From NCBI GenBank assembly GCA_036480375.1, contig JAZGGI010000050.1, forward strand, positions 1-64,000: DNA of 64,000 bases, read 5' to 3'. The stretch is from Candidatus Zixiibacteriota bacterium (GTDB lineage Bacteria > Zixibacteria > MSB-5A5 > GN15 > JAAZOE01). The translations under genes were made by a program, and so were the position numbers. Under the pieces are notes generated by a model that saw only the letters and a list, made by a program, of their open reading frames with translations, did no database searches and was not told the origin of the DNA. This document shows, in pieces, positions 16,092 through 62,941 of the stretch (position 1 is the stretch's first letter; every line of letters starts with the position of its first letter).

Positions 16092-17108
16092 CTAAAACGT
16101 CCCGGTAATTGAAAACGTTATCGACTTCTGAGTACTTTTTAGATCATAATCAAGACCGCGATAGAAATCCCCTGTGTCATCATAATTGGGACTCGCTGGA
16201 TCATCACCATACCATTCCTGCCTTTGTTCGCCTGCAGTACTAATGCTCAAGTATCGATACCCAAGACTGAGTGATATACTTGACCCGTTTGCGGATTTTT
16301 TGAATGGCCATTCGATATCTCCCGATAATATTAATGTCGCCCCGCTGCATGTTCCTCTGCCTTCTTTATTTCGTAAAACATGATCATCAAAATCTCTGCC
16401 AAATGTTAATGGTGAAAAACCAATATTGGCATTTAAGCTCACAGGATTCAATGCCCGGATCTGACTTTTTAAAGCGATATATGGAATATGATAGGTATAT
16501 TGGTTTATCCCGACCAGAGTATCTTCATGGGATTGAAAATTCAGACTATCAAATTGATCATTTTCGTATATAAGAAACCAGCCATCCAAACCAATTGCCT
16601 CAAATTCGAATTTCTGATACATATATCCTAAAGCACCACTAATAGAGAATTTTGGCTTATTGGCAAAATCAAATTCAACATTAATATCAATATCTGTAGC
16701 TCTTAATGTAACATCTGATTCAGAATAAACGGTCATTTCATCGAAATCATATGTTAAAGATTTTTGCCAATCAGAATCCGTGGTTGGCGTGTCTGGATCC
16801 TGAAGATTAGTAAAATAACTTAGATTCAAAGACCAATTCAAATCACCTTTAAGTTTACCTATTAATGAAAGATTACCTCCCCCCATATATGTATCAAGCG
16901 GACATTCTATCTCACTATCGAATTGTGTTAAATCATTATAATAAAAATATGAAAATCTCTCAGTAAACGTAAGATGCAATAATGTTGATCCCGATGTTTT
17001 GCGGCTCTCCAGAGATGCTTTGACCTTCAAGTAATCACCCAAAATTCCTGAAGTAGCCGTTGAAGAAAGAATTAGCCCCAGAATCGCAAGAACAATTAAT
17101 CGTTTCAA
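16092..17108 (-). CDS. Outer-membrane beta-barrel protein
   Basis: 338 residues. The start is TTG, placed 5 nt after GGGAGG. Signal peptide MKRLIVLAILGLILSSTA, then alternating amphipathic strands rich in Tyr, Phe and Ser (GNLSLIGKLKGDLNWSLNLS, ISLSLGYRYLSIST), ending in SITFSITGTF with the terminal Phe expected for BAM-assembled barrels. About 12-14 strands are likely. No family recognised; transport or structural role unknown. The 5' leader has a small hairpin at 17125-17142. Confidence 0.65.
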   Translation of the reverse strand: MKRLIVLAILGLILSSTATSGILGDYLKVKASLESRKTSGSTLLHLTFTERFSYFYYNDLTQFDSEIECPLDTYMGGGNLSLIGKLKGDLNWSLNLSYFTNLQDPDTPTTDSDWQKSLTYDFDEMTVYSESDVTLRATDIDINVEFDFANKPKFSISGALGYMYQKFEFEAIGLDGWFLIYENDQFDSLNFQSHEDTLVGINQYTYHIPYIALKSQIRALNPVSLNANIGFSPLTFGRDFDDHVLRNKEGRGTCSGATLILSGDIEWPFKKSANGSSISLSLGYRYLSISTAGEQRQEWYGDDPASPNYDDTGDFYRGLDYDLKSTQKSITFSITGTF

Positions 17109-19202: not shown

Positions 19203-20891
19203 TTATTTTGCGGTCGCAGTTTCTTTGTATGTAATTTCCCGATTGACAGGTAAAGATATTATAAAATTAGTACCCTGTCCCTGGATTGACTCCACCCTGA
19301 TTGAACCTTTATGCTTATCAATTATCCCCTTGCACACAACCAACCCGATTCCATGACCCGAATCCTTTGTCGTGAATTTTTCCTTAAATAATTTATCAAT
19401 CCGATCTTTGGGAATTCCGCAACCATGGTCCTTAATCGATATTTGGATTAAATCATCATTCGGTTGAGTCGCTGTAATATCAATCCTTTTTATCTCTGAT
19501 TCTGACGAAGCATCGGCCGCGTTATTAAGAAAATTATAAAGAACCTGTTCCAAAAGACTCGCATCTATTTCGGCTTCGAGGACATCAGAATCGGCGCTGA
19601 TTTCTATATCACATTCCCTGAATTTTTTCTGAGGGCGCAGGAAATCTACAATTCTATTCAATAAAGGGATGATATCAGTTACCTTAAAGACCGCCGATTT
19701 GCCGGAAGAATGATCCATGAGATTTTTGGTGAACTGACTGATTTTGTCAAGATGATCGTTTATTGACTCGGTAAATCTTTCCACTCCCTCAGTAATGCCC
19801 TTTTGGAGACGAACATCCATTAGTTGAAAATTGGCCATTACGACCCCGAGATAGTTATTCAGTTCATGACCGATCTCGGCAGACATTTGACCGCGGGTAG
19901 CCATTTTTTCCATTTGAATCGTCTGATCCTGCAAATATTCAAGATGCTTATAAGCTTCCCGGGACTCATCCAACAGCTGAAAATTCTCAAGCGATATGGC
20001 TAGCTGGCTGGCGATAAAATTGAGCAGCTGTGTGTCGGCGCCTTCGGTTTTCTCTCCCGTTCCGTGATTAAATAAAGTAAGATATCCCAGGATTTTCCCA
20101 CCGCGGTATAAGGGGACCAAAGTCGCTCCGCCGGTTGCAAAATATTTTTGAGGTAAGAAAATATCTTGATTGTTTTGGAATATTTTCGTGTCTCGTAAGG
20201 GATAATTCTCCGACGAATTGAGGTGAAGAGGCTCAGTAAATTGTTGAATAGTCTTGATATCTTCATCGGAACACTCGAAATCGACCGCTTCGGTGACGCC
20301 AACCTGATTGCCTTCCTGGGGCATAACCGTGATTTGGTTGCGTTTGCTATTAATATAGATTGCCATTCCGGCTATAGCTTTGCTTTGCACCATCGCGAAT
20401 GACAGTGATAGACCAAGCAATGATGCCAAATCACCGGAGGTGTACATTTGCCTGGATAAATCAGCGATCTTATTTAGCTCTTTGGATAATGCCGCCGAAG
20501 CGTCAGATTTCTTTTTCCCGACTGCCCGAGACATCGCCTGACGAATCTCAGATAATTCAAAAGGCTTCATTATATAATCATAGGCGCCTTCCTTAATAGC
20601 CTGCTTCGCGGTATCAAGATTCGCGTAACCAGTCATGAAAATGACGCCCACGGTAGGATTAATAAGTCGAATCTCACGAGCCAATTCAATTCCGTTCATT
20701 TCCGGCATACGGATATCGGTAAGCAAAAAGTCAAATTGCTGATTTTTCGTCAGCTTAATTGCTTCAGACGGCCTGAGAGTTGTCGTTATTTCGTAGCCTT
20801 CATCGGTCAAAGTATCCTCGACGAGACTGAGGACAATGTGTTCGTCGTCGACAACGAGTACGCTGGCGATTATATTGGCATAATCACTCAA
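19203..20891 (-). CDS. Hybrid receiver-GAF-histidine kinase
   Basis: 562 residues. TTG start with AAAGG 6 nt upstream and AGGAGG a little further; the gene overlaps the previous one by 8 nt. Receiver domain at residues 8-125 with Asp59 (LLTDIRMPEMNG) and KPFE. A GAF-like region follows (about 150-310), then a HisKA-type helix with the His in EIGHELNNYLGV, and a HATPase_c domain with NFLNNAADAS (N box), DHGCGIP (G1) and GHGIGLVVCKGI (G2). No membrane segments. The N-terminal receiver suggests it takes signal from the upstream kinase. Last gene of the five-gene locus. Confidence 0.88.
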   Translation of the reverse strand: MSDYANIIASVLVVDDEHIVLSLVEDTLTDEGYEITTTLRPSEAIKLTKNQQFDFLLTDIRMPEMNGIELAREIRLINPTVGVIFMTGYANLDTAKQAIKEGAYDYIMKPFELSEIRQAMSRAVGKKKSDASAALSKELNKIADLSRQMYTSGDLASLLGLSLSFAMVQSKAIAGMAIYINSKRNQITVMPQEGNQVGVTEAVDFECSDEDIKTIQQFTEPLHLNSSENYPLRDTKIFQNNQDIFLPQKYFATGGATLVPLYRGGKILGYLTLFNHGTGEKTEGADTQLLNFIASQLAISLENFQLLDESREAYKHLEYLQDQTIQMEKMATRGQMSAEIGHELNNYLGVVMANFQLMDVRLQKGITEGVERFTESINDHLDKISQFTKNLMDHSSGKSAVFKVTDIIPLLNRIVDFLRPQKKFRECDIEISADSDVLEAEIDASLLEQVLYNFLNNAADASSESEIKRIDITATQPNDDLIQISIKDHGCGIPKDRIDKLFKEKFTTKDSGHGIGLVVCKGIIDKHKGSIRVESIQGQGTNFIISLPVNREITYKETATAK

Positions 20892-21294
20892 TTGGAACCT
20901 TTCCTCCTGGGCAAATTTGGGAAATTACCTGCCTTAACTCATCCAGATCGAACGGCTTTTGCAGACAACACAAAGCTCCTTCCACGGTTGCGCTGGCGGC
21001 TAATTTATCGGGAAAACTGTCGGTCAGGACAACCTTTGAATGAGGCTTGATAACCATGAGTTCCCGAACCACTTCCAATCCATTTTTGCGAGGCATATGC
21101 ACGTCAGAAATAATTAGGTCGTAATCCTGATCGACGGCTTGATTCAAACCGATCTCTCCGTTTTCCGCTGTATCAACCCGGTATCCGTCATCGGATAAAA
21201 TATCTAAAAGAAGATTTCTCATTATCGGCGAATCATCGATAACAAGAATTCTCAAGTCGTTAGTACCCGATGAATTTTCTTTTTGCCGACCCAT
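20884..21294 (-). CDS. Single-domain response regulator
   Basis: 136 residues from the ATG at 21294, supported by GAAGG 6 nt upstream; a GTG at 21312 is less likely. Receiver domain with DD (20-21), Asp64 in LIISDVHMPRKNG, Thr in VVLTDSFP and Lys in LQKPFDL. No output domain. It begins 2 nt after the stop of the preceding receiver and overlaps the following hybrid kinase, so it is part of a tightly coupled operon. Confidence 0.86.
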   Translation of the reverse strand: MGRQKENSSGTNDLRILVIDDSPIMRNLLLDILSDDGYRVDTAENGEIGLNQAVDQDYDLIISDVHMPRKNGLEVVRELMVIKPHSKVVLTDSFPDKLAASATVEGALCCLQKPFDLDELRQVISQICPGGKVPIE

Positions 21295-21296
21295 AA

Positions 21297-21659
21297 TCAA
21301 CCTTCGAGACACCTTCTCACTTCGTCACGTAATTGGACGATAGTAAAGGGTTTTGACAAAAAGCCAATGGCCCCCAATCGAACACATTCATTGGCGATAT
21401 TCAATGATGTATATCCCGTTATTACTATTACCGGCAAATCTGTATTATACTCCTTCGCGAACCTTATGACTTCCTCACCACCCTTGTTGGGCATTTTGAT
21501 GTCGGTTATAATTAGATCAGGATTGATAGAAGGTATTTTATCAATTGCGTCCTGTCCATCGAAAGCCTGATCAATATTATAATCCTCAAGCACTTCAGCG
21601 ACAAAATCACGAATTATGGCTTCATCGTCTACGACAAGAATTCGAGCCGCATTATTCAT
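21297..21659 (-). CDS. Single-domain response regulator
   Basis: 120 residues, a complete receiver domain: DD (11-12), Asp53 in LIITDIKMPNKGG, Thr in VIVITGYTS and Lys in LSKPFTI. It starts 5 nt after the sensor kinase stop, so it is the likely direct partner of that kinase. The lack of an output domain means transcriptional output, if any, lies elsewhere. Confidence 0.87.
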   Translation of the reverse strand: MNNAARILVVDDEAIIRDFVAEVLEDYNIDQAFDGQDAIDKIPSINPDLIITDIKMPNKGGEEVIRFAKEYNTDLPVIVITGYTSLNIANECVRLGAIGFLSKPFTIVQLRDEVRRCLEG

Positions 21660-21664
21660 TGGAG

Positions 21665-23326
21665 TTAGCTTTCTTTAACGTCTTTTTTCAAGTCGCTATT
21701 ATTTTTATCGGGTATCGGCGGTTTTTTCTCAAGCGGTAGAATTATGGTGAATGTTGTCCCGCAATCTTCAATCGAATCAACTTTTATCTCTCCGCCGTGC
21801 TCGCGAATTATTCCATAACTTACCGATAAACCTAAGCCGGTTCCCTGTCCGATGGACTTTGTCGTGAAGAACGGCTCAAATATGTTTTTCTGTATTTCGG
21901 CCGGGATACCGACTCCATCATCGGCAAAACTTATTTCTACCGCTCCTGAAAACTCTCCCAGGCTGGGTGAGTGACGAGTAGTAATCAAAAGGTTACCTCC
22001 ATTTTCCATAGCATGGAGGGCGTTAATGATAATATTTGTAAATACCTGCTGAAGCATTCCGGTATTACCCATGACAGTAGGAATATTGTCAGGCAGGTCG
22101 GTTACCAGATTTATTTTATGCATCGAAAGTTGATGCTCAATAAGGGTGATAGTCTCTAACAAAGTATTATTAATATCAGCCTCGGATTTTTCGAATTTTG
22201 AGGCTGACCGTGAAAACTTCAGTAGATTCTGAACGATTGTTTTACAGCGCCTGGTCTGGGTTTCAATATCTCGTAAGTGTTTCTTATACGAATTAAAATC
22301 CTTTTCGGTAACCTCAGAAAAAGGCTTACGATTCATTTTTTCCAAAGTATATTGACTGTAACCCAGAATTCCCCCCAGAGGATTATTTAATTCGTGCGCC
22401 ACGCCGGCCGAAAGCTGACCAACGGCGGCCATTTTTTCGGTTTGGATGAGATGAGATTGAGCCTCTTCCAGTTCACGCGTTCTTTCTATTATTTTTTCTT
22501 CCAAAGTGCGGTTATATTCTTCAATTTCCTGTCGGGATTCTTTTAGCGACTCGACCATAACATCAAATGAGATCGCCAATTGACCGATCTCATCAAACCG
22601 CTTGATTTCCGTCCTGAGCGATAAATCACCCTGGGCGATTTTTTCCGCAGCCGCAGCTAACTGTTCGATCGGTTTAGTAATTAAATTAACAAACCCAAAC
22701 GTAAGAAGTATCGTCGCCGAAATTACCAGAAGAATAATTATGATTGCGCCGCGCACATGATTGTCCGCCTCGGCCATTGTATTAGAAACGGATACTCCCA
22801 GACGAACATTACCGATTACCTCGGTAATTACATGACCCCGGGATTTGCCAATAGTACCCAGGGTTTCGCGCGAAACAATGCTGCGAGTTGTTACTACCGG
22901 ATGACATAATTCGTAATAATAATCTTCACCGCTCTCATGAAATAATTTCCTGACCGCCATTGAATCTTCTTGAATTATAATGGGAAGATCGGCAGGTATC
23001 TCGATATCCATTTTTGATTTCTGGGCTAATATGTCGCCGTTTAGATTTTGCACGACAATATAGGTAATATCCTGTTCCTGGACGGTAGCGTCTATAAGCT
23101 CCATTAGAACCATTTCATTTTCAATAAATGTACCATATTCACAGTTAGCGGCCAGAACAGCAATAAGGGCTGAACCCTTATCGATCAATCCCTCTTCGGC
23201 CGATTGAATCTGAGTCGAAATTAAATAATAAGATACCGAAAATCCGCTGGCGATAATCAGAAGCGAAATAGTCAGGATAAATTTCAACCGCAGCGTGAGG
23301 TTTTTGAATTTGCCCAGGAGACTCAT
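21665..23326 (-). CDS. Membrane sensor histidine kinase with HAMP domain
   Basis: 553 residues, ATG after AAGGAGG. Membrane helix at about 16-36, periplasmic sensor domain 40-190 (dCache/sCache-like size), second helix 192-214, HAMP 215-265, coiled coil 265-295, HisKA with His311 in VAHELNNPLGG, and HATPase_c with NIIINALHAM (N box), DDGVGIP (G1), FEPFFTTK and GTGLGLSVSYGI (G2). The start overlaps the stop of the upstream binding-protein gene (ATGA), which points to that protein as its ligand-delivery partner. Not fused to a receiver. Confidence 0.92.
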   Translation of the reverse strand: MSLLGKFKNLTLRLKFILTISLLIIASGFSVSYYLISTQIQSAEEGLIDKGSALIAVLAANCEYGTFIENEMVLMELIDATVQEQDITYIVVQNLNGDILAQKSKMDIEIPADLPIIIQEDSMAVRKLFHESGEDYYYELCHPVVTTRSIVSRETLGTIGKSRGHVITEVIGNVRLGVSVSNTMAEADNHVRGAIIIILLVISATILLTFGFVNLITKPIEQLAAAAEKIAQGDLSLRTEIKRFDEIGQLAISFDVMVESLKESRQEIEEYNRTLEEKIIERTRELEEAQSHLIQTEKMAAVGQLSAGVAHELNNPLGGILGYSQYTLEKMNRKPFSEVTEKDFNSYKKHLRDIETQTRRCKTIVQNLLKFSRSASKFEKSEADINNTLLETITLIEHQLSMHKINLVTDLPDNIPTVMGNTGMLQQVFTNIIINALHAMENGGNLLITTRHSPSLGEFSGAVEISFADDGVGIPAEIQKNIFEPFFTTKSIGQGTGLGLSVSYGIIREHGGEIKVDSIEDCGTTFTIILPLEKKPPIPDKNNSDLKKDVKES

Positions 23327-24318
23327 TTTATGACCTCCTTGGCAATCGCCAGCAATTCTTCAGGAATCTGAAGACTGATTAACTTGGCGGTTTTTTCGTT
23401 ATACTTGAAATATATTACGCCTGCGCCCGGTGTTGAAACCGGAATTTTTGAAGGATGTTTTCCCTCCAATACCTTAACCGCTGTTTCACCCGTTTGACGC
23501 CCAATATCCTTAAAATCGAAATCTAATGTAAACAGACCACCCGCCTCAACCAGTGCCCGAGAAAATCCCATTAGCGGAATTCTATGACGCAACGTCTGGA
23601 GAATAATATGCTGTGTAGATTGTTGCGTAAATATTTTTTGATCGGCAACTGTCCAAAAGGCATCAACAACAGCGCACAATGAATCTAAAGTTCTGGGTAT
23701 CTCCCGCTCTGATTCTATTCTTAAAGCCACTAACTCAATCCCCAGTTGCTTGGCCGCAATCTGTGCCGGACGTATCAAGTTCTCGGTTTCATCCGAGTAA
23801 ATAACTCCCATCGTTTTAATCCGTCCGACAACTTTTTGGAAATACTTGAATTGTATATCGGGCGGAACATCCAGAGCGGCGCCGCTTATATTCCCTCCAG
23901 GGCGATTCATAGATGAGATGAATCCCGAGGCCGCGGGATTCATAACTGTTGCGAATATAATGGGCTTATTGGGAAAAAATCTCGATGTCATCAAAGTCGC
24001 GAATGATCCGATGGTAATTAATAGATCCGGATCAAACGAACTGATTTCATTCATTAATGTCGCATCTGCGGATTGTTCTCCAGTAAGAATAGCGTTTTTA
24101 TATAAGATTTCAAAGTCTGAACGGTCCAGAGGTTTTTTTAACCCTCTAATAGTTCTTTGAGTGGAAGGATCATCGTCAATGCAGATAATGGCGATTTTTT
24201 TTGCCTTGGATGCAGAGATCGAATCTGTGTAAATCCCCGGCAAAAAAAGAATCAATATTACAAAAAGAGCTGCCGGTCCAACGGTAAATTGCTTTATTCC
24301 CCGGACAATTAAATGCAT
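23323..24318 (-). CDS. ABC_sub_bind-family periplasmic binding protein
   Basis: 331 residues with an N-terminal hydrophobic signal or anchor (TVGPAALFVILILFLPG). The two-lobed fold of the ABC-substrate-binding family (PF04392 type) is indicated by KKIAIICIDDDPS, PDLLITIGSFATLMT, KPIIFATVMNPAASGF, PGGNISGAALDVPP, RIKTMGVIYSDE and FTLDFDFKDIGRQTGETAV. No ABC permease or ATPase gene is adjacent; the next gene is a sensor kinase with a 4-nt overlap. It is therefore likely a sensory binding protein rather than a transporter part. Ligand unknown; family members are often linked to aromatic or amino-acid compounds. Confidence 0.85.
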   Translation of the reverse strand: MHLIVRGIKQFTVGPAALFVILILFLPGIYTDSISASKAKKIAIICIDDDPSTQRTIRGLKKPLDRSDFEILYKNAILTGEQSADATLMNEISSFDPDLLITIGSFATLMTSRFFPNKPIIFATVMNPAASGFISSMNRPGGNISGAALDVPPDIQFKYFQKVVGRIKTMGVIYSDETENLIRPAQIAAKQLGIELVALRIESEREIPRTLDSLCAVVDAFWTVADQKIFTQQSTQHIILQTLRHRIPLMGFSRALVEAGGLFTLDFDFKDIGRQTGETAVKVLEGKHPSKIPVSTPGAGVIYFKYNEKTAKLISLQIPEELLAIAKEVIK

Positions 24319-24681
24319 ATCCGCCTATTATTTTTTTCGTCAAGATGCTAATCTATTGTGTTCCTGCCGGATGAATCTAATGGCATACAGATGTGATACC
24401 GGCTGCACCATACTATTTCCAGTATCGGACGCCTTCTAAAAATCTTAACCGGAGCAAGCCCGGATTAAATAATCCGATTATACGAATAAATATAATTAAA
24501 AATATATTTATAAAGAGGACCGATTAGATCGAAAATAAAAAAATGTCTAAGAGCTTTCTCTAAAGGAAAGAACAGGATTTCCGATACCTTATTAAGACAT
24601 ATATATCTAAAAGCGTACTGAAAAATGTCCAATTATGAATACTTCCTTTCGAAGTATTCATGCAAAACGAAGGAGTCGGGC
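24319..24681. other. Intergenic region upstream of the TonB receptor operon
   Basis: AT-rich divergent region between the binding-protein gene and the TonB receptor. No gene seen. It holds the leader hairpin at 24635-24661 and AT-rich tracts (24480-24520) that could house promoters. No convincing sigma-70 pair could be fixed by eye. Confidence 0.4.
24635..24661 (+). promoter_or_regulatory. Perfect leader hairpin just upstream of the TonB receptor ribosome-binding site
   Basis: Arms ATGAATACTTC and GAAGTATTCAT (11 bp, no mismatch) around a 5-nt loop. The AAGGAG ribosome-binding site lies at 24670-24675 and the TTG start at 24682. The position in the presumed leader suggests mRNA stabilisation or control of translation. 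Confidence 0.5.
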
Positions 24682-27345
24682 TTGTTGGCGTTAAACAAAG
24701 CGGCCAGGCTAATCATCCTGTTAAGTTTTCTTATCCTGCTATGCGTCTCTAACGCATTGGGGAGCACTACAGGGAAGATTGCCGGAATAGTTGCTAATGC
24801 AGAAACGGGGGAAGAATTAAAAGGGGCTACTATCCGAGTTCAGGGAACTCGGATAGCGACAATGACTGACCCGGATGGGGAGTTTTATATCATCAATCTG
24901 CCGGTTGGTGTTTATACGTTGGATATTTCGATACTCGGCTATGAATCCGCGATTGTCCAGCAAGTCAGAGTTCTAATGGATCTGACTACGCCGGTTGAAA
25001 TTAATCTGAATATCAGTCCGGTTGATTTAAATAAGTCAGTGACTGTTTATGCCAAACGTCCACTAATACAGCGCGATAAAACTTCATCCGGGGCGATTGT
25101 CACTCGCGATGATATCATGGTTCTGGCCGACGCCAGAAACGTCAGCAGTATCATCTCAAATATGAGTGGGGCGGTTGTCGGCGGCGACAACGCAATTCAT
25201 GTTCGAGGAGGACGCTGGGGAACCCTATCGTATTTCTTTGACGGATTCTCGATTCAGGATCCTTTTTACTCTACAATGGGAATGAGAATAGTCCCCGATG
25301 CCCTGGAAGAACTTTCCTTGACTTCAGGCGGCCTGGCCCCCGAATACGGGGAAGCCCTGGCGGGTGTGGTTAATGCCATTACTCGTGAAGGGACTGATGA
25401 ATTTCGAGGGCGCCTAAAAATCTTTGACGGAGCTTCACACCGATACGATGTTTATACGGGTGATTTCAGTGGTTTGGAACGAATAAACAATCACAGCATC
25501 TCCCTTGATTTATCAGGACCTATTGGCAACTTTGGCGGGCGCACCGCGACATTTTTTACAGCCCTGGAATATGAACGCGACGACGGATATCTGCCTCATA
25601 ATCGATACAAATCATATTCCGGCGTTGGCAAAATCGTCGCTTATCCAACCGACAAAACAAAATTGACTTTTAATGGCGCCTATTATACTTCAAATGAACA
25701 AAGGTACGATCACCGAGATAACAATCTCATGTCCTATGATTTCAATCTCGACGGTTCCGGTAAATACGAGGATAAATCATATCTGTTCGGGATTAAATTT
25801 GACTATAACAAATCAAGCAATACGGTGTACTCATTCAAAGCCAATAAATTCCGGACTGAACGCAAACTGGCTCCTGAACATCTCTTTGATCTATACTGGA
25901 AAGATTGGCCGGGATACCGCGAAGATGAAAACGGAGATTATAACGGCACTATTCAGGATTCAAACTACGTTCGTTCTCCGGAATACTATTACTGGGGTTA
26001 CACCACCGGCGACGATTTTTTCCCGGTTTACAAGGAACGCTGGTCAGCCTATTCGGGTGCCAGTTTCTCGTTGCTGTCGCAACTTGATAAATTCCATCAA
26101 TTGAAATTCGGCTGGGATTTGCGTCATTATGAACTCCATTGGGATAGTCGCCAGTTTTTCAATGCCATGCCTTACGGCGAAACATATACCGCATTTCCCT
26201 GGATCGGAGCCGCCTACCTTCAGGATAAAATCGAACTTAATGACTTGATTGTTAACATTGGCATGAGGTTTGATTATCTTAATTCCGATGCAAAATACTG
26301 GAACGACCCGATTGAACACGATTTCAAGAAGAACGCAAAAGCCAAATATCAAGTCTCACCACGACTGGGTATTTCACATCCGGTCAGCGAAAATTCGGTT
26401 CTCCATTTCAATTACGGCTACCTGTTCCAGCCTCCTCAGGGCGTGATAATGTACACCAACCTGAAAGGCGAACTGGATAGCGGATTTCCGCTTTTCGGTA
26501 ATCCCGATTTAAAGGCTGAAAAAAGTATTTATTACGAACTGGGCTTGGCTCAATTATTAAATGAAAACATCAGAATGCAGGTGACAACTTACTATAAAGA
26601 TATTAGCAATATGGTCGGCGCGCGGGAAGTCGTTGACGGCATAAATAATTATACCGTCTATACCAATTCCGATTACGGCTCAACTAAAGGGGTTGATCTA
26701 ATTTTGGAGACAACCAATCAGAAATTATTTAATTGGTCTCTAAATTACTCCTACATGATCGCCCGTGGTAACGCTTCCGATCCTAATGATTGGTATTACA
26801 ATTATTACACAATCCCCAATGTGGATGATAGACTCGAAATTCCAACTCGCGAATATCCGCTGGCGTATGATCAACGACACAGTCTGTCGGCTGTTATCGA
26901 TTTCCGAGTTCCCAGATTTGAAAAACTGCGAGTATTGGGTAAAGAATTGCCGTCCGCCTGGGGAATTAATCTGCTGGCGCGTTATGGGTCAGGATTGGCT
27001 TATACAAGAACCGATAAAAACGGGCGACCGGTTGGATCACTCAACGATGAAAGACTTTCCTCAACCATCAGATTTGATTCCCGTTTTAATAAAGATTTCT
27101 TTCTGACCGACAACAATGACAGCTATTTGACCCTGTATGTCGAAGTCGTCAATATGTTCAACAGAAAAAACGTTCGACGAGTTTATACTTCAACTGGAAA
27201 ACCGGATGACGATGGTTATGAAGTTCTGAATGTATTGAGTGCGACTTATGAGGAGGAAGTGCTTTATCATAGCCTTTTGGAAAGAGATCCCCAGAACTAC
27301 GAGCCGCCGAGACAATTACGGTTTGGCTTGGAGATTAATTTTTAA
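24682..27345 (+). CDS. TonB-dependent outer-membrane receptor with carboxypeptidase-like N-terminal domain
   Basis: 887 residues from a TTG at 24682 preceded by AAGGAG at 6 nt; an upstream ATG at 24625 lacks such a site and reads through the leader hairpin. Signal peptide (ARLIILLSFLILLCVSNALG), then a CarboxypepD_reg-like beta-sandwich (GKIAGIVANAETGEELKGAT, about residues 28-110), a plug domain (DDIMVLADARNVSSIISNMS, IHVRGGRWGTLSYFFDG), and a 22-strand-type barrel ending LRFGLEINF with terminal Phe. Imports or binds an unknown ligand in a TonB- or gliding-type system. First of three genes with the sorting-domain protein and the PorV-like protein. Confidence 0.9.
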   Translation: MLALNKAARLIILLSFLILLCVSNALGSTTGKIAGIVANAETGEELKGATIRVQGTRIATMTDPDGEFYIINLPVGVYTLDISILGYESAIVQQVRVLMDLTTPVEINLNISPVDLNKSVTVYAKRPLIQRDKTSSGAIVTRDDIMVLADARNVSSIISNMSGAVVGGDNAIHVRGGRWGTLSYFFDGFSIQDPFYSTMGMRIVPDALEELSLTSGGLAPEYGEALAGVVNAITREGTDEFRGRLKIFDGASHRYDVYTGDFSGLERINNHSISLDLSGPIGNFGGRTATFFTALEYERDDGYLPHNRYKSYSGVGKIVAYPTDKTKLTFNGAYYTSNEQRYDHRDNNLMSYDFNLDGSGKYEDKSYLFGIKFDYNKSSNTVYSFKANKFRTERKLAPEHLFDLYWKDWPGYREDENGDYNGTIQDSNYVRSPEYYYWGYTTGDDFFPVYKERWSAYSGASFSLLSQLDKFHQLKFGWDLRHYELHWDSRQFFNAMPYGETYTAFPWIGAAYLQDKIELNDLIVNIGMRFDYLNSDAKYWNDPIEHDFKKNAKAKYQVSPRLGISHPVSENSVLHFNYGYLFQPPQGVIMYTNLKGELDSGFPLFGNPDLKAEKSIYYELGLAQLLNENIRMQVTTYYKDISNMVGAREVVDGINNYTVYTNSDYGSTKGVDLILETTNQKLFNWSLNYSYMIARGNASDPNDWYYNYYTIPNVDDRLEIPTREYPLAYDQRHSLSAVIDFRVPRFEKLRVLGKELPSAWGINLLARYGSGLAYTRTDKNGRPVGSLNDERLSSTIRFDSRFNKDFFLTDNNDSYLTLYVEVVNMFNRKNVRRVYTSTGKPDDDGYEVLNVLSATYEEEVLYHSLLERDPQNYEPPRQLRFGLEINF

Positions 27346-27369
27346 TGGATGAAACTAACGAGGATAAAA

Positions 27370-30024
27370 ATGAGAATTGACGTTAAAATAATCGGCTTTT
27401 TTGCTTTGCTACTTATGAGCGTTTTCGCTGTTTCCGCTCATCCGGCTCAGCAATCCCCCCAATGGCCATTGCCCAGCGTCACGGATCAAATCATCCATAA
27501 TCAGGGGAATATCGGACTGGCTATTGTAAATTTCGGTTTTATGGGTGATTACTATTATTCCGGAGTGCCCTCGGGAAGATGGCCCGCTAACAGCACTCAC
27601 GATTATCTGGCTGAGATGGTGTTTTGGGTTGGCGGAATTAATGCCTCAGGTGACACGCTCCTGGCCAATACCAGCGATGATTTTAATCCGATTTTGAACA
27701 TCGCTTCGGGAAATAATGATTATCGAATAATGGTATCTAACGATACCACAACATATAACTATGATGGGAACGATACCACCGGAGCGGGAATAGGTTTTCC
27801 CGCCTATGGTTGGAGAATCTGGGATATTACTTCGCAGCAATGGGATTACAATCAGGTTTACAGCAGCCTCTCTTCAAGTTTCCAGCCCGGCGGTCCCGTC
27901 TCGGTCCAGGAATCAATTTGCCGTTACGGCGATGATGCTTCCTCCGGCACCCCCGTTATGGGTCTCGAAATAACACAAACGGTGAGGCAATGGAATTATA
28001 AGCATATCGGCGATATGATAATAATCACTTTGGAAATCACCAACGCCAGCACCGAAGATTATCATGATGTCGCTTTCGGACTTTATTGCGATTTCGATAT
28101 TGGCGGACCGGATCCCAATACGGGCGAAAACGGACGACTGGGCGATCTGGTCAATCACGATGCCAATCTGGATTTGGCGTGGACATACGATGAAGACGGC
28201 TATGATCCCGGATGGGGTCCCGGAGTCCGCACCGGATTTATGGGAACGACGTTTCTCTCTACTCCGGGCGATGTCGGAATGACTTCCTTTAGCACCGGAC
28301 AGTGGGAACTTTTACCGACGTCGGATAGAGCACGGTTCGAATTGATTGACGGCACTGATTTTGCGACATCTCTTCCGCCCACCGACCAATATTATGTACA
28401 GGCAATTCGAGGTATGGACTTGGCAGCTGGCGAAACTATTACAATTGATTTTGCTCTTGTGGTTGGTTCCAGTGAAGATAGATTAAAAACTATCGTCGAT
28501 GATGCCAAAACATTATATGCAAATAGTTATATAGCTACTCGGCCTCCGGATCCTTCAAATGTGAGTGGAATTAGCCTGGACAATAAAATTAATATCTCTT
28601 GGGATGATATTGCCGAAAATTCAATTGAACCTTCTACGGGCTCAACTGATTTTCGCGGTTATAAAGTTTTTCGCTCAAACGATTTTGGCGAAACCTGGGG
28701 ATTTATAGCTGGGTATGATGATGATATAACAAATCCCGATTATACTCCACTGGCAAGGTATGAGAGAGATGTTCTTGGCCGTATCTCACATACATATATA
28801 GATTCAAATTTAACAAATGGCATGGAATATTGGTACGCTGTTGTTCCATACGACAGTACGAATCTGGAAGTTGGCTACACATCTCAAAGACCAGAAACTG
28901 CGATACATGTCATTCGAGGAATTCCTCGTGATGATGCCCTGGGATATTTATCTCCCCAAACATCATTAGAACACAGCTTTAGTGGCGATTGGCGAAATGA
29001 TGAAGATGCAGTCTCACTCTTTGTTATTGATGAATCAGCTATAACAGGCGATGATTATCAAATTACTATCAATGAGGATTGCCTGGATATAACCTGGAAC
29101 TTAATCAATACATCTACCGGAGATACCGTCCTTGCTGACCAAACGCAAACATCAGGACTACCAAATACTTACTCTATAGTTGATGGTATGCAAATAGTCG
29201 TATCTGCACCCACTATAGATGAACACTATATCCCGGAAATAGCGGCACAAACGGAATTCTCATCTGCCGGAGTTGAAACCTTTTTACCGAACTTTGTAGA
29301 AAAAGTTTTTCCCGAAGATAATTGCTTCGAGCATTTCCGATATGATATTGAAATTCGATTCACCGCAAATGGCTCATTTGGTTATGATTATGGATCGCAT
29401 GCCTGGTATGGAATTGAAGTACAGGTTGCTTTGCCCTTTGAAGTCTGGGATATTACAAATGACGTTCAGCTTGATGTATGGATCTTTGATTTCATGGAAG
29501 ACGGAGAGTGGACTGTTGATTATGACTGGATGATTTTAACCGATTATCCTTACGATAATGGAACTCTTCAACTTGAAGCTCTGCCTGATTATTTCACATG
29601 GTTGATTGAATTAAATGAGAACAGTGTCCCTGCAAACGGCGATGTTTATTATATTCGTAGTGTGCCTGTTGTTTCTGCTGAGGATGAGTTCTCATTCTCA
29701 TCACTGAAGATCGAAACTGGTCAAGTCACCGCCAATCTCGATAAAATTCATACCGTGCCCAACCCTTATATCGGCTACGCCGAATGGGAAACCGGGCGCG
29801 GCACTCGAAAAATGCAATTTGTTAGTCTCCCTGATATCTGTACTATTCGAATATATACTCTATCCGGGGAATTGATTAACACTTTGGAGCACACCGACGG
29901 TTCCGGAGCCGAAGACTGGAATATGCTCAGCGAATCGGGACGGAGTATCGCCGCCGGAATTTATCTATATAATGTGGAAAGTCAATATGGCGATTTCAAT
30001 GGAAAATTCGCCGTTGTCAAATAA
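27370..30024 (+). CDS. Large secreted protein with FN3-like and C-terminal sorting domains
   Basis: 884 residues from the ATG at 27370, chosen because GAGG lies 6 nt upstream; an ATG at 27349 is only 3 nt after the previous stop. Signal peptide MRIDVKIIGFFALLLMSVFA. The N-terminal half has the module FWVGG...DTLLAN, then a beta-rich part with a DFDIGGPDPNTGENG loop, shared with the proteins at 60086 and 62957. An FN3-like domain follows (about residues 395-520, KINISWDDIAENS, GYKVFRSND). The last 90 residues (NPYIGYAEWE ... GIYLYNVESQYGDFNGKFAVVK) are a type IX/FlgD-like sorting domain. Likely a cell-surface protein handled with the PorV-like gene 19 nt downstream. Confidence 0.8.
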   Translation: MRIDVKIIGFFALLLMSVFAVSAHPAQQSPQWPLPSVTDQIIHNQGNIGLAIVNFGFMGDYYYSGVPSGRWPANSTHDYLAEMVFWVGGINASGDTLLANTSDDFNPILNIASGNNDYRIMVSNDTTTYNYDGNDTTGAGIGFPAYGWRIWDITSQQWDYNQVYSSLSSSFQPGGPVSVQESICRYGDDASSGTPVMGLEITQTVRQWNYKHIGDMIIITLEITNASTEDYHDVAFGLYCDFDIGGPDPNTGENGRLGDLVNHDANLDLAWTYDEDGYDPGWGPGVRTGFMGTTFLSTPGDVGMTSFSTGQWELLPTSDRARFELIDGTDFATSLPPTDQYYVQAIRGMDLAAGETITIDFALVVGSSEDRLKTIVDDAKTLYANSYIATRPPDPSNVSGISLDNKINISWDDIAENSIEPSTGSTDFRGYKVFRSNDFGETWGFIAGYDDDITNPDYTPLARYERDVLGRISHTYIDSNLTNGMEYWYAVVPYDSTNLEVGYTSQRPETAIHVIRGIPRDDALGYLSPQTSLEHSFSGDWRNDEDAVSLFVIDESAITGDDYQITINEDCLDITWNLINTSTGDTVLADQTQTSGLPNTYSIVDGMQIVVSAPTIDEHYIPEIAAQTEFSSAGVETFLPNFVEKVFPEDNCFEHFRYDIEIRFTANGSFGYDYGSHAWYGIEVQVALPFEVWDITNDVQLDVWIFDFMEDGEWTVDYDWMILTDYPYDNGTLQLEALPDYFTWLIELNENSVPANGDVYYIRSVPVVSAEDEFSFSSLKIETGQVTANLDKIHTVPNPYIGYAEWETGRGTRKMQFVSLPDICTIRIYTLSGELINTLEHTDGSGAEDWNMLSESGRSIAAGIYLYNVESQYGDFNGKFAVVK

Positions 30025-30042
30025 AACGCCTGGGAGAGAGAT

Positions 30043-31038
30043 ATGAAAAAGGTAGTCATACAAATCGCTGTCCTTTTAATTCTGCTGGGCGGCACGTGTC
30101 AGGCCGATGATTTTAGCAAAGTCGGATCGGTCGGCGCGCAATTTCTAAAAATTGGAGTCGGCTCCCGTTATCAGGGATTAGGTGAGGCATCCGTAGCAAT
30201 CGTTAATGATGCTTATAGCCTTTACTGGAATCCGGCGGGTCTGGCTTACATTGAGGGTAGCAGCCTGACCTTCACCAATGTCAACTGGGTGACCGATATT
30301 AATCTCAATTACATTGCTTTTGGAACTCGGATTGAAGACTTCGGAACTCTGGGTATATCAGCGGCATTACTGTCAATGGGAGATATGGATGTTACGACTA
30401 TTGATGAACCCGATGGCACAGGAGATATGTTCTCCGCTTCCAGCTTTGCTCTCACTATCGGTTATGCTCGATTTTTAACGACTCGCCTGACATTTGGAGC
30501 TTCATTCAAGTACATATATGAAAAAATTTATACCGAGACAGCCGGTGGAATTGCCTTTGACTTTGGTACTCAGCTTCATACTGGATATAAAACGTTGCGG
30601 ATTGGAATGAACATCTCCAATCTGGGACCCGATATGGAATTTTCCGGACCAAATCTGAAAGCTCCGATTGAAACTCAATCGCCTACTTCCAGAAACGGTG
30701 AAGTCGCGGTAGATTCATACGACATCCCGTTGACATTCAGATTGGGTTTGGCTTACGATTTAATTAACGATCCCGATAATATTCTCACCATGACCGTCGA
30801 AGCAAAACACCCCAACGATTTAGAACAACAGGCTTCGCTGGGAGGTGAATACAATTATCAGGATCAGTATTTCCTGCGGGCAGGTTACAAATTCAATTAC
30901 AGCGAGCAGGGTCTCACCCTGGGTGGCGGCCTCAATGCACCAATAGGCAAAAACAGTACGCTCGTTGCCGACTATGCCTGGTCTGATTTCGGCAGATTTG
31001 ATTCTGTACACCGCTTCTCAATTGGTTTCAAATTCTAA
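30043..31038 (+). CDS. PorV/PorQ-family (UPF0164-like) outer-membrane protein
   Basis: 331 residues with signal peptide (MKKVVIQIAVLLILLGGTCQ, then AD). Hallmarks of the PorV/PorQ FadL-like barrel family: GSVGAQFLKIGVGSRYQGLGEA, NDAYSLYWNPAGLAYIEG and the terminal HRFSIGFKF. In type IX systems PorV carries cargo with C-terminal domains to the attachment complex (known). Sited 18 nt after a sorting-domain cargo gene, it may serve that protein. A terminator follows. Confidence 0.85.
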   Translation: MKKVVIQIAVLLILLGGTCQADDFSKVGSVGAQFLKIGVGSRYQGLGEASVAIVNDAYSLYWNPAGLAYIEGSSLTFTNVNWVTDINLNYIAFGTRIEDFGTLGISAALLSMGDMDVTTIDEPDGTGDMFSASSFALTIGYARFLTTRLTFGASFKYIYEKIYTETAGGIAFDFGTQLHTGYKTLRIGMNISNLGPDMEFSGPNLKAPIETQSPTSRNGEVAVDSYDIPLTFRLGLAYDLINDPDNILTMTVEAKHPNDLEQQASLGGEYNYQDQYFLRAGYKFNYSEQGLTLGGGLNAPIGKNSTLVADYAWSDFGRFDSVHRFSIGFKF

Positions 31039-31070
31039 TAAAGTTTAAATACGCTTAGATATATCTAAAA

Positions 31071-31098
31071 AATCCTGTCTTCTCGGCAGGATTTTTTT
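31071..31098 (+). terminator. Terminator of the TonB/secreted/PorV-like operon
   Basis: AATCCTGTC / GGCAGGATT stem (one G-T pair) with loop TTCTC, followed by six to seven T residues. Confidence 0.85.
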
Positions 31099-31299
31099 AT
31101 GCTTTTTCCGCTCTTAAGGCAATAGGTCATAAATCATCTTCTATGGTGAAAATCCCACATTTTTCCCAATTTTCGACCTATATTTTACCTCATCACTATC
31201 AGACGACATCTTATATCTTATGAATTGGCAGTGCCTTATCAGTTTGCGATGGCCGCGGGCAGGGTATTTGCACTTTTATTGGCAACCAAAGGAGTCACT

Positions 31300-32064
31300 A
31301 TGACTATTAGAATTAACGATGACAGGATCGGTAGCGGACTGGCTATTAATATCGGAAAATCGTATGCTGGTTTGAACAAAACAATGGAGAAGTTGACTTC
31401 GGGTTTGCGCATCAATCGAGCTTCTGATGATCCGGCGGGACTTGTGATTTCCGAAAATTTGCGTTCCAAAATTGGGTCTTTAAATCAGGAAATCGAAAAC
31501 ACAACTCTGGCAATCAGGAAGTATGAAACGGCCGATGCCAATATCGGTGAATTGCGCAGTAATCTCAACGAATTAAGAGCTCAGGCGGTGGGAGCGGCTA
31601 ATTCAGGGTTTAACTCGCAAGCGATGGATGACGCCTATCAAGCGACAGCCGACAATATGACATCGACATATAATCATATTGTTGATACCGCCAGTTTCAA
31701 TGGCTCAAAAATCTTCGGAGCCGGAGAAAATTCAATGGCCGATGTTTCCAAATTGGAAAATATCGATTTTTCAACTCCGGAAAAAGTTCAGCAATCGATT
31801 GGCCAGATTGATAAGGCATTATCCGAGCTTGACGCGGCGCAAGGTCAAAACGGCGCGCATCAAAAATATGGATTGGAGGCTCACCGCTCGAATCTGGAAG
31901 TAACTGTACAGAACTTGCAGGCGTCGGAATCTATGATTCGTGACACCGATTATCTTGCCGAAATATCAAATCTGCTCCGGGACAAGATAACGCTAAAAGC
32001 CGGAATGGCGCTTTTGGCGCATTCCAATGTGATGAGCTCATCGGTCCTGAAATTGATGGAATAA
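31300..32064 (+). CDS. Flagellin-like protein, short type
   Basis: 254 residues from the ATG at 31300 (AAAGGAG at 5-6 nt); an upstream start at 31225 is unlikely. Classic flagellin N domain: NIGKSYAGLNKTMEKLTSGLRINRASDDPAGL, with interrupted later conserved blocks, and C domain: LEAHRSNLEVTVQNLQASES, IRDTDYLAEISNLLR and AHSNVMSSSVLKLME. The variable central region is nearly absent, so the filament would be smooth with no D2/D3 domain. No other flagellar gene occurs in the window. A bidirectional terminator follows. Confidence 0.88.
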   Translation: MTIRINDDRIGSGLAINIGKSYAGLNKTMEKLTSGLRINRASDDPAGLVISENLRSKIGSLNQEIENTTLAIRKYETADANIGELRSNLNELRAQAVGAANSGFNSQAMDDAYQATADNMTSTYNHIVDTASFNGSKIFGAGENSMADVSKLENIDFSTPEKVQQSIGQIDKALSELDAAQGQNGAHQKYGLEAHRSNLEVTVQNLQASESMIRDTDYLAEISNLLRDKITLKAGMALLAHSNVMSSSVLKLME

Positions 32065-59982: not shown

Positions 59983-60085
59983 TCTGTATGCGGTCGGGAA
60001 CAAAAATTTTAACAATAAGACTATTTGTACGTTATATTAATAGGGATTGAGCGAATATCATAATCGCCGGGTGATAATTATTGGC

Positions 60086-62941
60086 ATGAAAAAGAGTATC
60101 ATATATATTTTGATTTTTATAGTCGCCTTATGCGGGCATAATTCACGTGCCAAAACCGTATTTCCAAAGAGTCTGAATCAGAAAATTACGCTAAATGATA
60201 ATTACTGTTTTCAAAAAATGACCGATACTCTTGGCAATTTATGGCTTCCGTTATCCAATCGCATGGGCATCGGTGATCCTTTCGGCGATAGTGATATGTT
60301 TCCCCAGGATGAGGAATTGACCGGTAATTTGGCCGAAGATTTTAACGCTGTCATTAACAAGCGGACGCAAGTTGATTATCTTCATTCGGCCGGATTATGG
60401 GTGGGGGGCATAAAAGGCAATGATACCCTGGTGTCGCATTCGTTTGATTATACCGCTCCCATCCCGGAATTAAATCCATTGCCTTGTCCAAATGGTCAAA
60501 TTATCACAGCTAATGAGTGGGCCGATTTAGAAATTCTGGCGACAGCCTACGATACCATAATAATCGGCGATACAACCGCCCGATGTTATCTGGGCGATTG
60601 CCGCGATTGGTATCCCTTAGGGATCAAAGTAACGTCACACAGCTATAAGTGGGTTACTCCTCCCTATGATAAAATTGAGTTGGTTGAATATACGATCACC
60701 AATATCGATACTTTGCCTTTGGAAGAGGGGTGGGTTGGTATATACGCTGACTGCGATATCGGTTATCGAGCGCCCGGGTATGAGAACGATGATATTTCAG
60801 GATTTATAAACGGCGCGATAGACGGCCAGGGGAAATGGGCAGATTTAATCGTCGCTTATTCAATGGATATGGACGGCGATCCCAAAGATTATAAATTCAA
60901 TGACAAATCTCCCCGGGGCGCTTTTGCGATTCAGGTACTGGGATTATCGGTTTCGGATTATCGCGTAAACTACAATTGGTGGGTTGACAATCACGATACC
61001 TGGTTGGAGTGGGCGCCGCGTCAACGTGAATATGAATTGCGCAATCTGGGTAATTCGATGGCGATTGCCTATGGTGATAGCAATAAATATTATCTGATGT
61101 CCCATACGGAAATTGATTATAATCAGATTGAGGCGGCCCTCAGTCATCCCCAATGGAATGATCCGGATATAATCGGGAGGGATATCGCTCAAGGTAATGA
61201 TACTCGGTTCTTGATTTCCGCCGGACCGTTTAATCTGCAGCCGATGGAAGAGGTTACTTTTACAGTGGCTTATATGGCCGCCGATTCAATTCTTAATAAT
61301 CCATTTATTGATATCTGGTTCAATCCTTCAAATCCGTTATCGGTTTCGGACTGGTATGAGGTTTCTGATTTTAGCGGGTTGATATCGACGGCTTTCACGG
61401 CCCTGGATATTTTTAATAATGGGTTGGATTATCCTCCTCCCGGGCCTCCCGAGAAGCTGGTCCTGGTGGATTTCAATAATACTTCGGTTACTCTGACTTG
61501 GTCTGAGAAGTCTGCTGTCGATTTTGCAGGTTATTACGTTTACTCAAGAACCGGAAATGATGAATGGTCGCAGGTATCTGACATTTCATGGATTAACGAT
61601 ACAATAGCAACAATTAATAATCTTGATTTTGAAATAGAATATAAGTTTGCCGTGGCGGCGGTTGATTTGAACGCGACCGTCGGCAAATTGTCTGCGGAAG
61701 TGGTTGTGGTGGTCGGAGGTCCTCATCCTCCATCAGCATTAATTGGATCGGGTAATCAGGCGTATCCCAATCTAAGTTGGTCGCATTCAAGCAGTCTGGA
61801 TGTGATTTCCTATAATATTTATCGATGCGATGAACAATTCACAACGCATGAAGTGATTGCCAATGTTAGTGATACGACTTTTATTGACCTGTCCGCCCGG
61901 TCCGGAAATCGATATGAGTATTTTGTAACGGCGGTTAATTCCCGCGGATTTGAATCTCCGCCATCGATAAAGATAAGAATATCCCCAATGGCATTGACGT
62001 CTGGTATACTGGTTATTGATCAAAACTCGGGATCGCTGTTTGATAATCTGGTGTTTGATAGGTTGTTTTTGGATTCTCTATTGTATCGGGGATTAGAAGG
62101 TTTGGATTACTTCTATTTGTCATTTGATGAAAACAATCCTCCAACTCTCGGTCAATTGTCCGATTATTCGCTGTTGATAATCAGCGCCGAAAACAGAGGG
62201 GGGGCCTTATCCGCCCAGCTCGAATATACGCTTGAAACTTATTTGTCTAACGGAGGTAAAGCGATTATCCTCCTCAGGCATTGCGGAATTGAAATTGAGT
62301 CGGAAACCGATCCCAGGATTATAAGATTCCGCCCGGAATCAATTTTCACCAGATATCTAAGAGTTGATTCGAGCTATATTGGGCCGACGAAAGTAACGAA
62401 TGGCTATAATCTTGAGGGTGATTTAATCGGAGCCTCGCCTGTTTTGCCGTCCTATCCGCAATTAACATGGGATAGTGTGCGGATAAATCAATTCGGATAT
62501 GGAGTGAACACGGGCTTACCTTATTGTGGAGCATTTTGGCCATCTGCGGAGGTCGAGGCTATTTATCGATATCAATCTTCCTCGGATGGCAGTTTTCCTG
62601 ATGATGAGGTAAATGGTATTAGATATTTGGGTGAGAGTTATAGTTTTTATCTTTTGAACTTCCCTCTGTCATTAATGGAGTTGGACGAGGCTTCGGTTTT
62701 GTTGAGGACCATGGTGGAAGAGCTAAATGAGCAGAATATCTGCGGGGATATCAACGCCGATAATAGGCTCAATATCGGTGATATTGTTTCCTACGTTCGG
62801 TATCTTTTCCATGACGAAGAGCCGTCGAAAATATATCTGAACGGTGATGTTGACTGCGACGGCGGATATGGGATGAGTGATTTGCTAATGCTGATAAATT
62901 TTTATATGCGGCAAGGGTTAGCTCCCAATTGCTGTGAATAA
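60086..62941 (+). CDS. Large secreted protein with FN3-like domains and C-terminal dockerin repeats
   Basis: 951 residues from the ATG at 60086 (an upstream TTG at 60047 is less likely). Signal peptide MKKSIIYILIFIVALCG. The N-terminal module (GLWVGGIKGNDTLVSH ... NWWVDN) is shared with the proteins at 27370 and 62957. Two FN3-like domains follow (about 465-640), then a ThuA/glutaminase-like region (QNSGSLFDNLVFDRLF), and a dockerin pair at the end (CGDINADNRLNIGDIV, NGDVDCDGGYGMSDLL). It has no NPFNP sorting domain. Likely cell surface. Confidence 0.8.
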   Translation: MKKSIIYILIFIVALCGHNSRAKTVFPKSLNQKITLNDNYCFQKMTDTLGNLWLPLSNRMGIGDPFGDSDMFPQDEELTGNLAEDFNAVINKRTQVDYLHSAGLWVGGIKGNDTLVSHSFDYTAPIPELNPLPCPNGQIITANEWADLEILATAYDTIIIGDTTARCYLGDCRDWYPLGIKVTSHSYKWVTPPYDKIELVEYTITNIDTLPLEEGWVGIYADCDIGYRAPGYENDDISGFINGAIDGQGKWADLIVAYSMDMDGDPKDYKFNDKSPRGAFAIQVLGLSVSDYRVNYNWWVDNHDTWLEWAPRQREYELRNLGNSMAIAYGDSNKYYLMSHTEIDYNQIEAALSHPQWNDPDIIGRDIAQGNDTRFLISAGPFNLQPMEEVTFTVAYMAADSILNNPFIDIWFNPSNPLSVSDWYEVSDFSGLISTAFTALDIFNNGLDYPPPGPPEKLVLVDFNNTSVTLTWSEKSAVDFAGYYVYSRTGNDEWSQVSDISWINDTIATINNLDFEIEYKFAVAAVDLNATVGKLSAEVVVVVGGPHPPSALIGSGNQAYPNLSWSHSSSLDVISYNIYRCDEQFTTHEVIANVSDTTFIDLSARSGNRYEYFVTAVNSRGFESPPSIKIRISPMALTSGILVIDQNSGSLFDNLVFDRLFLDSLLYRGLEGLDYFYLSFDENNPPTLGQLSDYSLLIISAENRGGALSAQLEYTLETYLSNGGKAIILLRHCGIEIESETDPRIIRFRPESIFTRYLRVDSSYIGPTKVTNGYNLEGDLIGASPVLPSYPQLTWDSVRINQFGYGVNTGLPYCGAFWPSAEVEAIYRYQSSSDGSFPDDEVNGIRYLGESYSFYLLNFPLSLMELDEASVLLRTMVEELNEQNICGDINADNRLNIGDIVSYVRYLFHDEEPSKIYLNGDVDCDGGYGMSDLLMLINFYMRQGLAPNCCE

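Follow-up and report, generated by a model that had tools for sequence, protein, structure and literature searches.

In Flavobacterium johnsoniae, one shuttle, PorV, is reported to recognise every type A C-terminal domain (CTD) of the type IX secretion system (T9SS). Cargo proteins with a type B CTD need a cognate SprF-like shuttle that is encoded next door (PMC12618676), and PG1035-PorP of P. gingivalis is likewise a pair of cargo and PorP (PMC9143113). Here we describe a three-gene operon of Candidatus Zixiibacteriota, for which type B cargo with its cognate SprF-like shuttle is the closest precedent. As in these type B cargo-PorP/SprF pairs, the cargo gene lies directly before the gene of a barrel that is thought to take and anchor the cargo. 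In contrast to them, this operon encodes a type A-like CTD, its barrel belongs to the PorV family and not to PorP/SprF, and its first gene is that of a TonB-dependent receptor (TBDR). Three further systems bear comparison. The T9SS shuttle PorV (6h3i/8gl6; PMC10994853) is the closest relative of the third gene in both sequence and predicted structure; the barrel of the trio differs from it as a paralogue in a separate clade, in a genome that has its own core PorV elsewhere, beside PorU. SusC-SusD and RagA-RagB resemble the trio in that the TBDR carries an N-terminal CarboxypepD_reg-like domain and its gene precedes that of a surface partner, but the partner in the trio is not SusD-like by any profile, is not a lipoprotein and carries a T9SS CTD, and a PorV-family barrel is added. 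Oar-PopC of Myxococcus (PMC6434023) resembles the trio in linking a TBDR with a secreted protein. All parts of the trio are of known families, and there appears to be no earlier account of them combined in one conserved, regulated unit: in the open-access literature, exclusive of preprints, we found neither the trio nor a mention of Zixibacteria with type IX secretion.

The window, that is, the whole stretch of 64,000 nucleotides analysed here, is part of a genome of 3.59 Mb (97% complete) from Candidatus Zixiibacteriota, a phylum with few, if any, cultured members as far as we know. The trio and the genes divergent from it are laid out as follows (window positions):

19203-20891, minus strand, hybrid of receiver and histidine kinase
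20884-21312, minus strand, second single receiver domain (CheY-like)
21297-21659, minus strand, single receiver domain (CheY-like)
21665-23326, minus strand, membrane histidine kinase (sCache-like sensor, HAMP, HisKA, HATPase), with a 4-bp overlap with the binding-protein gene
23323-24318, minus strand, periplasmic substrate-binding protein of PF04392 (E=6.5e-41), divergent from the trio
24682-27345, plus strand, TonB-dependent receptor of 887 aa with CarboxypepD_reg-like domain, plug and barrel; the reading frame opens at ATG 24625
27370-30024, plus strand, secreted 'cargo' of 884 aa with Sec signal peptide, N-terminal domain, Fn3/Ig-like middle and type A-like T9SS CTD
29770-30021, plus strand, residues 801-884 of the cargo, a sorting-domain-like CTD with GKFAVVK as its last residues
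30043-31038, plus strand, PorV/PorQ-family outer-membrane barrel of 331 aa and 14 strands (NF033709, PF19572, structure model and profile)
31067-31097, plus strand, intrinsic terminator of 13 pairs, 3' of the trio

The receptor, cargo and PorV genes form a real operon. Their plus-strand reading frames end at 27345, 30024 and 31038, the gaps are 24 nt between receptor and cargo and 18 nt between cargo and PorV, and one terminator is shared, all in agreement with the spacing and the single terminator given in a preliminary description of the sequence. That description had also called the first gene a TonB receptor, which is upheld by the matches to PF00593 (E=2.8e-24), PF13715 (E=3.9e-15) and Plug (E=3.3e-5), and had placed its start at 24635, where the ATG lies in another frame. 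The likely receptor start is instead TTG 24682, because AGGAG followed by CTTGTTGGC is conserved at this site in an alignment across family genomes. Against TIGR04056, the model of SusC/RagA-family TBDRs, the receptor reached 74 of 368 bits, below the cut-off, and a PDB sequence search with it gave no match. The start of the cargo, ATG 27370, is preceded by the Shine-Dalgarno sequence AACGAGG and gives the 884 aa and the 24-nt gap. When the divergent promoter region was aligned, conservation was limited to the ribosome-binding site and the start. An Rfam scan of the window and four related loci found no riboswitch and no other RNA.

Other genes of the window deserve a brief mention. A flagellin gene (31225-32064) directly follows the terminator of the trio; its place beside the trio is limited to a subset of the genomes of this family. 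The minus strand encodes an Omptin-family outer-membrane protease at 16092-17108 (PF01278, 51 bits); to our knowledge, such proteases are unusual outside Proteobacteria. Type I dockerin domains occur in two secreted proteins, encoded at 24-1787 and 60047-62941, and one of these also combines a NosD-like beta helix with a T9SS tail.

The cargo is most conserved in its N-terminal half, which contains acidic motifs such as DFDIGG, NGRLGD and DEDGYDPGW. A Pfam scan of the window protein gave no family matches, the SusD family being found neither there nor in profile searches of the orthologues, and a PDB sequence search gave no match either. A lipobox is absent from the window cargo and from 36/37 orthologues. 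The structure model, built from nine sequences, was poor (mean pLDDT 51) and suggests a beta-rich, Ig-like protein; its matches were only Fn3/Ig chains, PorU, PorZ and assorted enzymes, and an identification of the fold from this model was set aside. By homology, the C-terminal region is a type A-like T9SS sorting domain. The window tail alone reached 16.4 of 23 bits with TIGR04183, under the cut-off, though 8/9 orthologues matched the model at E<=1 (best E=1.5e-5), and a profile of 37 cargo tails matched the type A tails of the same genome with 97.2% probability (hhalign), which bears out the type IX-like domain that had been noted on the middle protein. The glycine and lysine positions of the beta3-beta4 region and of the last strand, respectively, are reported to be functional (PMC11285876). 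Among the cargo tails, the beta3-beta4 glycine motif occurs in 36/37, and near the end there is a Lys in 18/37 and an Arg in 19/37, hence Lys or Arg in 37/37.

The third protein had been described as PorV-like, and it clearly passes the cut-off of the PorV/PorQ family model NF033709 (234 bits vs 90) and matches PF19572 (E=1.6e-15). With the T9SS PorV equivalog NF033710 it reached 104 of 250 bits, below the cut-off. This cut-off may be too strict for the phylum, because the core PorV of the same genome also fell short of it with 178 of 250 bits. In a profile search of PDB sequences, the trio barrel matched only PorV of F. johnsoniae (6h3i, E=4.4e-26), and its model, with 14 strands and a mean pLDDT of 61, best matched PorV 8gl6_F from the RemA-CTD-bound translocon (E=1.5e-13), followed by FadL (E=1.5e-10). 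The receptor-linked PorVs branched as their own clade (100/95), apart from core PorV; other paralogues sit on long branches, and their mutual order in this tree is unsure. As the genome has a separate core PorV, the PorV of the trio is a paralogue and not the core protein itself.

We then compared the locus across relatives. The order TBDR-cargo-PorV was kept in every one of the 38 distinct genomes read (38/38), which represent nine families (f1-f5, f9, f10, f13 and f14), and because of this recurrence the arrangement is far beyond chance. The gaps, measured in 37 of these loci, are short in the relatives as well, and the proteins diverge down to about 40% identity. The trio had been proposed for a search in related genomes, and its order was thus found conserved, class-wide, in every relative read. 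A relative of the cargo at E<=1e-60 was present in 97/133 genomes of the phylum, nearly always as one full copy; five of these hits (G100, G102, G105, G106 and G124) look like paralogues of the other trio lineages, and about 92 are left without them. Members of the order that have no trio are few and mostly fragmented metagenome-assembled genomes (MAGs). The survey covered genomes of the phylum Candidatus Zixiibacteriota, and the unit may be wider than that.

The five-gene sensor module on the minus strand adjoins the trio in nearly all loci, usually divergently; in family f13 it lies on the same strand, directly upstream of the trio. Among the 133 genomes, 88 have both the trio and an orthologue of the binding protein, 4 only the trio, 5 only the binding protein and 36 neither, in a tally that excludes the weak hits to the binding protein in f15/f19 as well as the five cargo hits that resemble paralogues. 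The corresponding Fisher P overstates the case, since the genomes are related and not independent. A domain scan found no DNA-binding output domain in the relay proteins. Beyond this eight-gene unit no neighbour is common to all families, and the neighbours give no clue to a substrate.

A second trio of the same design was found on contig 42 of the same genome, with a receptor of 997 aa, a cargo of 1073 aa and a PorV of 331 aa; its order is kept in 10/10 relatives from the order and in one genome of another family (f18). Further trio lineages occur in f12 and f13. The TBDR, cargo and PorV trees are nearly alike and recover the same four trio lineages, and partner swapping was not seen. The PorV tree places the contig-42 type within the first group; its branch is long, and this placement may be an artefact. 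These phylogenies show that receptor, cargo and PorV are co-inherited.

A search of the genome for the T9SS core, which the preliminary description had recommended, recovered SprA (622 bits) and PorU (634 bits), with the core PorV on contig 10 beside PorU. SprA occurs in 127/133 genomes of the phylum; the trio of the window is confined to some families. The core PorV (40001-42787 of contig 10; 6002-8788 of locus L102) has 928 aa; about 590 residues are inserted after the start of the barrel and before its remainder, and this insertion has repeats of a propeller-like look, an unusual architecture for a PorV. The genome has 48 TIGR04183 tails and ten full PorV-family matches, and PorV-family genes adjoin CTD proteins at about 5 of the 10 loci (contigs 50, 42, 10, 3 and one on 24), with P of about 2e-5 under a rough expectation of 4%. 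Contig 3 (L106:6793-13034) encodes a protein of 1475 aa whose tail is type A-like, followed by a 605-aa PorV-family barrel fused to TPR-like repeats. On contig 24 (L103:4007-10610), the place of a CTD cargo after a receptor-PorV pair is taken by a lipoprotein-like protein of 710 aa that has no Pfam match. About ten paralogues of 840-862 aa elsewhere in the genome (loci L112, L113, L114 and L115, on contigs 3, 11, 31 and 27) have both the N-terminal motif TNFGTFG and the CTD subtype of the cargo, with no PorV or receptor adjoining, and these orphans are possibly clients of the trio PorVs.

In the reading that we prefer, and that we consider to be evenly balanced between right and wrong, the trio is a surface-uptake module: a substrate-binding protein displayed by the T9SS, shuttled or anchored by a PorV paralogue of its own and partnered with the receptor, beside a sensor module. 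The cargo would be secreted by Sec and then by the T9SS through the SprA translocon, from which the adjoining PorV paralogue would bind and take it, instead of or besides core PorV. The paralogue may hold the cargo at the surface beside the TBDR, in a putative complex with the receptor. There, the conserved N-terminal domain of the cargo would capture a ligand, as SusD does for SusC, and transport would run inward, with the TBDR importing the captured ligand with TonB energy. In the periplasm, the PF04392 protein would sense the imported ligand and signal via the membrane kinase and the receiver relay towards a presumed output. Several points speak against such a module, namely a CTD under the TIGR04183 cut-off, half of the orthologues with Arg for the conserved Lys, no ligand clue, no riboswitch and a relay without a DNA-binding output domain. 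The preliminary description had gone as far as a dedicated cargo-carrier-importer unit. This is reasonable, given a T9SS core in the genome and a gene order that relatives keep. Two findings count against an exclusive tie of the trio PorV to the cargo: the approximately ten orphan proteins share the CTD subtype, and the receptor-PorV pair on contig 24 has a lipoprotein-like partner.

The barrel might serve the receptor instead. The TBDR-PorV pair on contig 24 lacks a CTD cargo, and for that reason the PorV may belong to the receptor and not to the cargo; it could be a receptor partner or side channel in the manner of a FadL-like barrel, with the cargo exported by way of core PorV and merely co-regulated. 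The fold of PorV is also that of FadL barrels, FadL/TodX rank second among the structural matches of the trio barrel, and the FadL-like BamG of Bacteroidota is a structural partner and not a shuttle (PMC12578637). However, the closest relative of the trio barrel in sequence and structure is PorV itself, and the association of PorV-family genes with CTD proteins at about half of the loci argues in the same direction, so that we regard a side channel as rather unlikely.

The receptor could also act on the cargo directly, by exporting or releasing it. Myxococcus provides a precedent, since PopC secretion there depends on the TBDR Oar (PMC6434023), and the cargo gene is located immediately 3' of the receptor gene. 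The cargo, however, has a T9SS-like CTD and SprA is almost universal in the phylum, and we judge such a role of the receptor to be very improbable. Oar-PopC reportedly has no T9SS CTD and no PorV, and PopC export is said to be described without a T9SS-like CTD. Finally, the trio may form a structural surface layer or adhesin without nutrient import, with the sensor module serving motility or chemotaxis. An Fn3/Ig-rich cargo, as in the low-confidence model, would suit this idea, as would the CheY-like single receivers and the flagellin gene located 3' of the trio in part of the family. Yet conservation of the flagellin ends with the family, the TBDR with its plug is invariant and a substrate-binding protein belongs to the conserved set, which makes an adhesin improbable.

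The surface-uptake reading has a more far-reaching form, which we advance only tentatively. PorV paralogues may have diversified into dedicated carrier-anchors of type A-like cargo, with an operon tying each to a TonB receptor of its own, and the resulting stable outer-membrane uptake complex of three proteins under a binding-protein/kinase relay would be a T9SS-built counterpart of SusC-SusD. If true, this would be a second route to specificity between cargo and shuttle, dedicated shuttles being known so far only for type B cargo, and it would link the T9SS directly to nutrient import. The trio offers a conserved, testable unit for a little-studied phylum.
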